A DNA stretch of 64,000 bases from Neisseria subflava. Lineage in GTDB: Bacteria > Pseudomonadota > Gammaproteobacteria > Burkholderiales > Neisseriaceae. Below the pieces are notes generated by a model, which ran no database searches, had not been told where the DNA came from, and saw only the letters and a program-made list of their open reading frames with translations. Below, piece by piece: positions 52,924-59,140 of this stretch. Numbering within the stretch: position 1 is the stretch's first letter; every line of letters starts with the position of its first letter. A program made the translations under genes and the position numbers. The stretch lies in the NCBI RefSeq assembly GCF_003044935.1, contig NZ_POXP01000001.1, positions 1 to 64,000 on the forward strand, written 5' to 3'.

Positions 52924-53037
52924 CTGGTTACTCTGGTTACCTGGTTACCAGCCCCTAAAAACCTTTATAAATCAACGATAATGCGGTAACCAGTTATGCC
53001 CTTGTCATTGGTTACCAGTGCCGGTTAAGTGGTTACC
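52924..53037. repeat. Left iteron cluster (GGTAACCAG)
   Basis: Six copies of GGTAACC or its complement within 114 bases: 52924, 52933, 52941, 52985, 53008 and 53029, in both orientations. Probable binding sites of the element's replication protein. Confidence 0.75.
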
Positions 53038-53093
53038 CGCCGCCTTTTGCTTTCTTTTCATGGACTTGCAAAAATCTAGGGACTGCGTTATTA

Positions 53094-53110
53094 CGCGCGC
53101 GCGCGTATTG
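53094..53110. repeat. (CG)6-TATTG repeat, left copy
   Basis: A run of six CG dinucleotides followed by TATTG; identical 17-mer at 57712-57728. Confidence 0.8.
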
Positions 53111-53201
53111 GTGTCGAAATTATTTATTCCACTGCCTGCTTTTTGGGTAGATATGGCGTAAATAGGCTAAAATTGCGCTGTAAGCGTGTTTCATTGATTG
53201 G

Positions 53202-53248
53202 GTAGCAACTGTATTTTTGCCAGACGGGGTGAAAAATACAGTTGCTAC
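53202..53248. repeat. Perfect 17-bp inverted repeat downstream of the DUF305 gene
   Basis: GTAGCAACTGTATTTTT and its exact complement flank a 13-base loop. It may be a bidirectional terminator, but the stem is A/T rich at its base and longer than needed, so it may instead be a remnant of a small transposable element or a protein-binding site. Confidence 0.7.
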
Positions 53249-53293
53249 ACCTTGGTTTTAAAGAACGCGGTTAGCGAGGATGCAGGCTACGGC

Positions 53294-53668
53294 TTACTTT
53301 TTTTTGTTGTGTGCTTTAAGCCATTTTTGCATTTGTTCAATTTCCGCTTGTTGTGCGTTAATAATATCCTCAGCAAGCTTACGCATCTCAGGATCTTTTC
53401 CGTATTTTAATTCAACTTCCGCCATTTTTACTGCGCCAATATGGTGTGGCAGCATACCTGCTGCAAAAGCAACATCAGGGTCTTTATATTGCGCAGCAGC
53501 CATCATGTCTTGATTCATTTGATTCATACCTTGCATTAATTCTTGTTGCATTGCAGAACCTGTCGACATTTGCATATTCATGTGTGCTTGATGCGGTTGT
53601 TCATTAGCTTGGGCATAATTTGAAATTGCAATAGCGCTAAGTGTGATAAAAGTCATAAGTTTTTTCAT
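53294..53668 (-). CDS. DUF305 exported protein, candidate copper-binding cargo
   Basis: 124 residues. Signal peptide (MKKLMTFITLSAIAISNYAQA), a Met/His/Gln-rich segment (HQAHMNMQMSTGSAM), then one DUF305 domain with FAAGMLPHHIGAVKMAEVEL and an EIEQMQKWL end. DUF305 proteins such as cyanobacterial CopM bind copper in the periplasm; the MLPHH and Met-rich parts fit. It is more A/T rich than surrounding genes. A CueR-type promoter precedes it, so copper induction is likely. Confidence 0.85.
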   Translation of the reverse strand: MKKLMTFITLSAIAISNYAQANEQPHQAHMNMQMSTGSAMQQELMQGMNQMNQDMMAAAQYKDPDVAFAAGMLPHHIGAVKMAEVELKYGKDPEMRKLAEDIINAQQAEIEQMQKWLKAHNKKK

Positions 53669-53702
53669 GTTTTTCGCCTATGTGATAACTAAAGGAACAC
53701 AA

Positions 53703-53733
53703 ATCATACACTTTGACCTAGGGTTAAAGTCAA
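53703..53733 (-). promoter_or_regulatory. MerR/CueR-type promoter with 19-bp spacer
   Basis: On the minus strand TTGACT and TATGAT are 19 bases apart, and the spacer holds an imperfect dyad (ACTTTGACC-t-AGGGTTAAAGT on the plus strand). Overlong spacers with a central dyad are diagnostic of promoters twisted open by MerR-family activators. It drives the DUF305 gene. No MerR gene is in the element, so a chromosomal regulator is implied. Confidence 0.75.
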
Positions 53734-53865
53734 TATTTATTTCGATACACAAGGGTTGGTATAAGGAAAGGGGCAAACAGTCCTAATTTTTGAAATTTAG
53801 GGGCTTCCTGTTGATTTTATGCTTTCTTGGTTGGTCTGTCTGAATGTTTGGACGTAAAAAAGCCC

Positions 53866-53889
53866 GCCATTGTCGGTAATAGCGGGCTT
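53866..53889 (-). terminator. Terminator of the primase-helicase operon
   Basis: AGCCCGC pairs with GCGGGCT, with six As on the left giving a U run on the minus strand. Confidence 0.88.
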
Positions 53890-53897
53890 GCTCTTGG

Positions 53898-57149: not shown

Positions 57150-57152
57150 TCG

Positions 57153-57479
57153 TCAGGGCGCGGGATGGGGTCGGTTTTGAATATATCCCTCAAGCTCGGA
57201 TGACAAATCGAAAGATTCCAAGTTTTCCGCATGGGGGACTAGGGTTTGAATGACTGTGGCAAGGCGTGCCGTGCTTCTGATCGCACTTATGGGGGCGTTG
57301 TGGACGGGATGGGCGGCCATGTTGTCGCAAATGGTGTCGATGATTGCGCCCGTATTGGCGATAAATTCGCCGCCGTAATACAGCGCGTCCATGATGCGGT
57401 TTGCCAGCTCTAAAGGGATGGTTACCGTTTGGGATTGATTTTGAATGGTTTGGATTTGGGTAGAAGTGCAAGATTGCAT
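57153..57479 (-). CDS. Element-encoded small protein, unknown
   Basis: 108 residues, no signal and no membrane helix. A Gln/Thr-rich start is followed by a helical middle (TIPLELANRIMDALYYGGEFIANTG). AGGAG sits eight bases before the ATG, so it is probably translated. I do not recognise the family. It lies between alpA and the primase operon, where satellites often carry small regulators. Confidence 0.6.
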   Translation of the reverse strand: MQSCTSTQIQTIQNQSQTVTIPLELANRIMDALYYGGEFIANTGAIIDTICDNMAAHPVHNAPISAIRSTARLATVIQTLVPHAENLESFDLSSELEGYIQNRPHPAP

Positions 57480-57553
57480 TTGAAATGCTCCTAGTTAAAT
57501 TGAGATTTGAGAAATGCCCGAAATAAGGGGGCGGTGCTCTCTCCTGTAACTAG

Positions 57554-57790
57554 TCAGGCGTGGACGTTGCCGTTACCACACACCGCCATAAACTTTGATA
57601 TGCCGTCCAAAGCCTGTAAATAGGCTTCAAACGCCATAAGAGAAAATGGCGATAAAAAATCAGCGCTACCCTGCTGATTTTGTCTAAAGGGATAGATTCC
57701 CGTTGATTCTTCGCGCGCGCGCGTATTGTTCAGAAAACTCCTACTCTTCGCGTTTGGCGGCCAGTTTGTTGAGATACTCTTCAATCTCAC
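57554..57790 (-). CDS. Possible small satellite ORF (overlaps alpA end)
   Basis: A frame from GTG at 57790, starting inside alpA, of 78 residues. Its second half has NTRAREESTGIYPF and ends KFMAVCGNGNVHA. Small ORFs with an NTRAR-like motif encoded by a CG run are a recurring sight in satellites, which is the main reason to list it. No good ribosome site seen; true start uncertain. Confidence 0.3.
   Translation of the reverse strand: MRLKSISTNWPPNAKSRSFLNNTRAREESTGIYPFRQNQQGSADFLSPFSLMAFEAYLQALDGISKFMAVCGNGNVHA
57712..57728. repeat. (CG)6-TATTG repeat, right copy
   Basis: Same 17-mer as 53094-53110; here it encodes the TRAR part of the small frame on the minus strand. Confidence 0.8.
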
Positions 57791-57947
57791 TGGAAAGCCA
57801 GCCGGTAATATTGTCTGAAAGTTTGATAGGCTTAGGAAAATCAGGGCGGTGATGGCGGCTCTTAGGGTTTACCCAATTCCAAACAGTCGCTCGTGAAACG
57901 CCCATAACGCGGGCGGTATCGTTTACTCGTAATACAGTGTTATTCAT
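57741..57947 (-). CDS. alpA: AlpA-family transcriptional regulator
   Basis: 68 residues, one helix-turn-helix of the AlpA/excisionase class: LRVNDTARVMGVSRATVWNWV, then FPKPIKLSDNITGWLSSEIEEYL. In P4-like elements and PICIs AlpA activates the integrase/excision genes and helps decide excision. It is separated from the upstream gene by a hairpin and two palindromes that may be its operators. AGAAAGGC precedes the ATG. Confidence 0.88.
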   Translation of the reverse strand: MNNTVLRVNDTARVMGVSRATVWNWVNPKSRHHRPDFPKPIKLSDNITGWLSSEIEEYLNKLAAKREE

Positions 57948-57989
57948 TGGTTGCCTTTCTTATAACGGGTTAGATGACAAGCAAAAGAA

Positions 57990-58010
57990 TAGCCGCCTCT
58001 GTGGGCGGCT
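57990..58010 (-). terminator. Hairpin between the 312-residue gene and alpA
   Basis: AGCCGCC pairs with GGCGGCT, followed on the minus strand by ATTCTTTT. Confidence 0.7.
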
Positions 58011-58012
58011 TG

Positions 58013-58046
58013 TCCTATATAGGATTGCATAAAACCTAATTAGGTT
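58013..58046. promoter_or_regulatory. Two perfect palindromes upstream of alpA
   Basis: TCCTATATAGGA (58013-58024) and AACCTAATTAGGTT (58033-58046) are exact palindromes within 34 bases, sitting where the alpA promoter should be. Candidate operators. Confidence 0.45.
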
Positions 58047-58983
58047 ATTGTGAAAGACGGTCGATACCTTGCTTAATATATTTTGCTAATGTGTCTCCAG
58101 TGGGGGGCTTGCCTAGTTTATCGGCTTGTCTTTCCCACTCTTGGATAATAGTTTCTGCTGCCTCGTATGGTTTACTGCAATCGGTTTTTGTATAGATAGC
58201 GGAAAGTGCCACAATAATTTCAGCTTGTTTATTTTCAGTGCGTTTGCTGATAGATTTTTGTATCTTCATTTTTTCGCTCAATACTTCTTTTAGCTCATTA
58301 AAACTCTTACTTGTAAGGCGTAAGGTATCAGTAGTAACCGTTATACTCCATTTATTACTCTCTAAAAAATCTCTATCTGGGTATCTAGGTCGAAACCGAT
58401 AGTCTTCTACTCTAGTAAAATCGGCTAATGCCTCATTTGGAATGTATTGAAAAAACCAGCCCTCAGTTTTCAAGTCTGTAATGTATGGTAACCCTGCTAT
58501 TTGTCCGTAATTTTCATTTTCTACATCAATTACTTCCTGTGGTGTTTTACATTCTATCAGTTTTGTTCCAGAAGCTAGTTTGGGGATTCTTACAGTATAG
58601 TTTTCAAAAGCCGGATTAATGCCAAGATGCTGTAAACCCTCTGGGGCTGCCTCAATATGCTCCCCATTAATGTCTAATAGATATGGGCATACGCTAACTT
58701 TAGCTGATTTTTTAATTTCAATTTCTTGCATTGTGGTGCTGTGAATTGGTGCGAAATAACCTTTAAATAAATAACATTCAATAATTAAGGGATTATCAAT
58801 ATTTGGGAAATAACGTTCTGCCAAGCTCCTTTTAAAAAATCTCATTGTAGATGCTTGTATGCAAAATTCAGTTAATCCGATAGCCCCATAATGGATAATA
58901 TCATTAACTTCAAAGCTATCATTAAGCTGTTTACTTAATTCATTAGCTGCATCTTTTAAGGTGTAATATGCTCGCCATGCCAT
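58045..58983 (-). CDS. Accessory-element protein, unknown function
   Basis: 312 residues, A/T-rich codons unlike the core. I start at 58983 because GGAGA is eight bases upstream. The N-terminus (YYTLKDAANELSKQLNDSF, then VNDIIHYGAIG) reads like the MerR-like winged helix found at the start of many integrase-adjacent proteins. The C-terminus (IIVALSAIYT, KPYEAAETIIQEWE, DTLAKYIKQGIDRL) matches the recurring tail of that group. It may be a DNA-binding regulator of the element. Confidence 0.5.
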   Translation of the reverse strand: MAWRAYYTLKDAANELSKQLNDSFEVNDIIHYGAIGLTEFCIQASTMRFFKRSLAERYFPNIDNPLIIECYLFKGYFAPIHSTTMQEIEIKKSAKVSVCPYLLDINGEHIEAAPEGLQHLGINPAFENYTVRIPKLASGTKLIECKTPQEVIDVENENYGQIAGLPYITDLKTEGWFFQYIPNEALADFTRVEDYRFRPRYPDRDFLESNKWSITVTTDTLRLTSKSFNELKEVLSEKMKIQKSISKRTENKQAEIIVALSAIYTKTDCSKPYEAAETIIQEWERQADKLGKPPTGDTLAKYIKQGIDRLSQ

Positions 58984-59014
58984 TTTTACGGTCTCCTGCA
59001 TAAATACAAATATT

Positions 59015-59140
59015 GGTAACCAGTGGTAACCAGTTGGTAACCAGTAAATTTACGTTAACTGGTTACCGCTTTTTCTTTGTATTTATATTTATATTCATAT
59101 AGTTATATTTGTAAAGTTTTGTGGTAACCAGAGTAACCAG
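59015..59140. repeat. Right iteron cluster (GGTAACCAG) with AT-rich core
   Basis: Copies at 59015, 59025, 59036, 59059 (inverted), 59123 and 59132 (AGTAACCAG). The first three are direct and 10-11 bases apart, i.e. one helical turn. Between 59068 and 59120 the DNA is almost pure A/T, like an unwinding element. This is the best candidate for the element's replication origin. Confidence 0.8.

Follow-up and report, generated by a model that had tools for sequence, protein, structure and literature searches.

Phage P4 requires both ori and crr for replication, two sites at separate places that carry arrays of one word. The origins of phage-inducible chromosomal islands (PICIs) of Gram-negative bacteria are reported to lie 3' of rep and to comprise two sets of iterons together with an AT-rich region (e.g., EcCICFT073, whose rep-ori is reported to maintain a plasmid; PMC6092414), and those of the Staphylococcus aureus pathogenicity islands (SaPIs) are placed directly downstream of rep. 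Here we describe a stretch of 64,000 nucleotides from Neisseria subflava (contig NZ_POXP01000001.1, positions 1 to 64,000; hereafter, the window) in which two clusters of the iteron word GGTWACC flank the primase and helicase genes of an element integrated at a tRNA-Leu gene. Judging from comparison with related loci, the two clusters, A on the right and B on the left, are quite probably half-origins that together form a single origin of an integrated satellite of the Gram-negative PICI type. Like Gram-negative PICIs, the element has int, AlpA, primase and rep genes that all point in one direction and an integrase with a specific attachment (att) site (Pfam matches and the empty sites L173 and L174), and, as in SaPI Rep-type initiators, its helicase combines the Rep fold with a C-terminal domain. 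Unlike in Gram-negative PICIs, its iteron sets lie 6 kb apart with one beside int, a layout shared with P4. Of the two PICI-type sets, both of which it has, a single one lies 3' of rep; in the related loci L039 and L042 the two are contiguous.

Each cluster consists of five exact GGTWACC copies and one degenerate copy, at 52924-53037 (half B; exact copies at 52935, 52943, 52985, 53010 and 53031, and CTGGTTAC at 52924) and at 59015-59140 (half A; exact copies at 59015, 59025, 59036, 59061 and 59123, and GTAACCAG at 59133), in agreement with the extents given by the first-pass annotation of this DNA. Its other descriptions of the clusters were borne out as well: the right cluster contains three phased direct copies, 10 and 11 bp apart, and an A/T core at 59068-59122 (84% AT vs. 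51% for the window), and nothing comparable is found elsewhere in the window, where the 11 remaining GGTWACC copies are dispersed, with no pair of them inside 140 bp. The 21 copies in total compare with 4.09 expected, and none of 100 shuffles came as high (maximum 12). In the 2.16 Mb host genome, the longer word TGGTWACCAG has 15 exact matches, seven of them in the two clusters (two of the seven being one place read on both strands) and eight scattered.

By sequence comparison, A and B are neighbors in the majority of the relatives examined, and both halves keep their spacing, strand order and common iteron word. For instance, a single array downstream of the helicase gene carries both halves in L042, L044 and L058; in L042, half A reads - 9 - 64 + 23 - 11 - 10 - (strands with the spacings in bp), followed across 47 bp by half B, + 10 + 23 - 43 + 9 + 9 +. 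The window's right cluster equals this A even beyond the iterons, with the AT-rich stretch and the CCCTATGCGCG flank in common, and its left cluster resembles half B of the contiguous relatives. The same comparison places the A block beside int in the window and two close relatives, with B still downstream of the helicase gene; these relatives are L040 in genome G034 (helicase 95% identical) and L164 in G062 (helicase in two frames). The DNA preceding B in the window and L040 resembles, as read by eye, the DNA preceding A in L042, and the A block therefore appears to be gone from that place and to lie beside int now. Since the nearest rows outside the window's clade in the helicase tree (L039, L168, L043 and L042) are all contiguous, the split looks derived in this clade. 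A truncated element in G007 (L041) yielded only half B. Relatives with a single cluster, named beforehand as a finding that would speak against a two-site start, do exist in form, but not in substance: most relatives have one array, and this array holds both halves.

These comparisons bear on two alternatives. One half only might be the working origin, the other being a relic of rearrangement or an array for copy number or incompatibility; half A has an AT-rich gap and could suffice, and 15 of the surveyed loci (below) show one half only. We regard this as unlikely because the spacing of each half is the same in the window, L040 and L164, and because the half-only label is unreliable, being also given to 33 of 100 control genic windows. 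Alternatively, with six iterons and a gap in each, the clusters could be two complete, independent origins. However, the halves adjoin as one array in 71 loci and they differ from each other: among 63 contiguous origins, the mean AT fraction of the gap is 0.77 in A vs. 0.66 in B (A is higher in 43), and TATATA occurs within 60 bp outside B in 33 but outside A in 5 (1% of random 60-bp windows). The window has such a box just outside half B (52905-52914). Two independent origins thus seem very improbable, and we favor the reading of two halves of one origin. The number of iterons per contiguous origin is 11-13 in 55 of the 63. A GCG-type box seen by eye outside half A turned out to be no general feature (29/63 outside A, 21/63 outside B, 45% of random windows).

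To survey this organization, 127 loci, of which 111 (counting the window and P4) are distinct, were scanned, each with a motif derived from that locus itself. Leaving P4 aside, the 110 distinct loci comprise 71 contiguous, 15 split, 15 half-only, 5 unresolved and 4 with none. The automatic classification of the 111 had given 69, 14, 15, 9 and 4, respectively, and was changed by hand as follows: P4 was removed from the contiguous class, a label caused by its two crr copies; L047 became split (its near cluster is longer than the span limit allows); L152 became contiguous (span 440 bp); and L111 and L151, set to contiguous, as well as L048 were read from a first motif scan, in the case of L048 because the later scan picked another word. 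That first scan was otherwise dropped, A/T-rich words having been chosen in some loci (L041, L047, L055, L063). Half A lies after int in the window, L040, L164, L046 (N. weixii, same as L085), L047 (same as L086), L048 and the Pasteurellaceae loci L141 (Glaesserella), L144 (Spirabiliibacterium) and L156 (Avibacterium gallinarum). In L067, one half is 6.9 kb upstream of the helicase end, and in L071 (E. coli plasmid), L124 and L139 (Serratia), L131 (E. albertii) and L153 (Lonsdalea) the second half is 1.9-6.2 kb downstream. On the helicase tree there are at least 10 changes between contiguous and split, an approximate number given long branches (L067, L072, L074, L076), mosaic helicases and a quick tree method (98 rows, with L055, L069 and L164 left out as short and half-only rows uncounted).

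The layout of the halves, which played no part in detecting them, fits in 13 of 15 far halves (misfits L048 and L144) and 12 of 15 near halves (misfits L046, L047 and L156) vs. 2 of 123 control clusters. In all 16 split loci (P4 included), the outer group lies left in one half and right in the other, the side of this group being what names the halves A and B in split loci. Contiguous or split calls were made in none of 107 shuffled downstream sequences, in 7 of 100 genic windows (the seven include those from the window and L141, which contain half A) and in 4 of 91 far-downstream windows (the four include those from L124 and L139, which contain half B); the 15 half-only loci were not used as evidence for splitting because of the control rate given above. 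Two loci of the survey stand out in other respects: a Yersinia pekkanenii contig (L114) carries three copies of the origin array (7129-7394, 11711-11976 and 12892-13187), and a contig titled Chryseobacterium (Bacteroidota; L115) carries an Enterobacterales-type element, by transfer or contamination.

Iteron words differ from element to element and follow the C-terminal domain of the helicase only (Mantel partial r 0.318, 0/999; 88 elements, including half-only loci and leaving out L111, L151, L140, L155, L048, L088, L089, L067, L072, L074 and L076). Within split loci, the two halves share their word: the own-pair sum is 241.3 vs. 68.5 +/- 20.3 (maximum 153.3) in 10,000 permutations, and a locus's own half ranks first in 11 of 16, the other five being beaten only by same-word elements (in L048, the own-half match is no better than three others). 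The fold of the window's DUF927 helicase (53898-55643, reverse strand), the putative replication initiator, matches SaPIbov1 Rep (8tch) and Cch of the staphylococcal cassette chromosome SCCmec (5dgk), C-terminal domain included, at 16-20% identity. We infer that the helicase reads the iterons through this domain (amino acids 448-581; 53901-54302). It is also conceivable that the clusters are operators of a regulator of the element and lie near replication genes incidentally, since 13 bp separate half A from the start of the gene for a 318-amino-acid protein of unknown function (58045-59001, reverse strand) and AlpA belongs to a DNA-binding family. This has little to recommend it, given that the array is downstream of the helicase gene in contiguous relatives, that the word tracks the helicase C-terminus and that in L040 the gene for the 318-amino-acid protein was not found, a different reading frame following half A.

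The parallel with P4 drawn by the first-pass annotation gains support at both clusters. The right cluster (- 9 - 64 + 23 - 11 - 10 -) has the same strand order and almost the same spacing as P4 ori (- 10 - 44 + 21 - 11 - 10 -), whose type I repeats in the deposited annotation (spacings 10, 11, 22, 43 and 10; strands - - - + - -) give the layout of A when read along alpha, and the left cluster shares a '- 44 + 8/9 +' core with crr, both P4 copies of which end in the '- 41/44 + 9 +' core of B. Among P4 kin (33 of 80 fetched were scanned; their alpha proteins are 84-99% identical to that of P4, and hence not independent), 31 have both halves and the other two none; the ori-type half is 4.0-4.9 kb upstream of the alpha end and the crr-type half 53-67 bp after it. 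One crr copy was seen in four of these kin (L253, L254, L267 and L276) vs. two in P4, a difference to which contig ends may contribute. Like P4 crr, the left cluster lies between the helicase gene and att, and like P4 ori, the right cluster is located upstream of the operon. In P4, however, ori is on the far side of the AlpA-like ORF88, whereas the window's half A is between int and the gene for the 318-amino-acid protein. The window also differs from P4 in having separate Toprim primase and DUF927 helicase genes instead of the fused alpha primase-helicase, and P4 has two crr copies and sid, delta and psu genes; no Pfam match to psu, delta, sid or epsilon homologues was obtained in the nine proteins scanned. 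The ori and crr of P4 are best read as the same arrangement as the separated PICI-type half-origins. No description of split PICI origins, or of crr as half of a PICI origin, was met among the titles and openings of abstracts listed in the literature searched, to which the older P4 papers mostly do not belong.

Several observations weigh against the two-halves reading. The far halves of split loci were sought by means of the near half's word, which in itself favors a common word; the only exceptions are the window, noticed by eye, and P4, taken from its annotation. The word sharing within split loci is therefore not independent evidence, and our confidence was lowered slightly on this account. 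Part of the correlation between word and helicase C-terminus could come from joint transfer alone, as the two adjoin in contiguous elements. In eight of the 63 contiguous origins, 9-10 or 14-15 iterons were called, making six per hexamer approximate, and Enterobacterales differ in their inner spacings. The element is no relative of P4 by helicase or morphogenesis genes, and profile comparison (hhalign) did not relate the helicase C-terminus in sequence to the C-terminal domain of P4 alpha; PDB 1ka8, which matches alpha residues 671-770, was not among the 50 matches listed for the helicase C-terminal model. Finally, the left att core (52699-52716) has three mismatches in 18 positions relative to the tRNA copy, and mobility of the element may be impaired as a result.

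Under the model that we propose, the DUF927 helicase, a SaPI Rep homologue, would read the iterons with its C-terminal domain, the approximately six iterons of each half would seat one helicase hexamer, half A would melt in its AT-rich gap, and the two loaded halves would act together over a distance, in the way ascribed to P4 ori and crr. A wider proposal, which in our judgment is evenly balanced between holding and failing, is that PICI origins and P4 ori/crr form one class of two inverted, separable half-origins with one initiator hexamer each. The halves would have separated repeatedly, by movement of A beside int or by DNA coming between A and B, while remaining tied by the common word read by the helicase C-terminus; crr would be the second half, and initiation would proceed via pairing of two hexamers loaded kilobases apart.

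Such a model would suggest, in evolutionary terms, why P4 possesses crr besides ori, makes naturally occurring contiguous and split forms of the same origin available for comparison, and cautions that part of a PICI origin may be located elsewhere than 3' of rep. It also points to a helicase domain that may set the identity of an origin, from which one might predict which satellites can share a cell; an example is provided by two elements in one chromosome with identical primases but different helicase C-termini and iteron words. The second of these, the PICI-like L039 (G000:C1:241000-259000, genes at ~246000-254100), has a primase 100% identical to that of the window element and a different integrase (34%). 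Its helicase is identical over residues 1-200 and then 42% identical at the C-terminus, and its origin is contiguous with the word GGTAACA.

The window element spans ~52700-60607 (7.9 kb), as established from the empty sites L173 and L174 (genomes G026 and G009, with no helicase match), in which the left flank up to window position 52699 joins the tRNA-Leu end at 60607; a third genome without the element (G063) shows local variation. The tRNA-Leu(TAG) gene (60608-60692, reverse strand) holds the other att core copy at 60615-60632. All on the reverse strand, the element also encodes a DUF305 protein, probably cargo (53294-53668; Pfam match), a Zn-ribbon/Toprim primase (55640-56800; Pfam match), an AlpA-like regulator or excisionase (57741-57947; PF05930, E 1.9e-9) and a tyrosine integrase (59169-60410; Pfam match), and small open reading frames are present as well. 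In an excised circle, the halves would be ~1.7 kb apart across att and int vs. ~6 kb through the operon. Half B being 224 bp from the left end, the clusters might be thought accessory sites for integrase or excisionase; this is the least credible of the alternatives, as the distance between half A and the right end is 1467 bp, contiguous relatives have both halves together beyond the helicase gene, and separate ATACCC-type repeats near both ends (52584-52606, 52771-52793 and 60444-60466) look like candidate integrase arm sites. Two alternating CG runs (53092-53105 and 57712-57725) form a 14-bp inverted pair inside the element.
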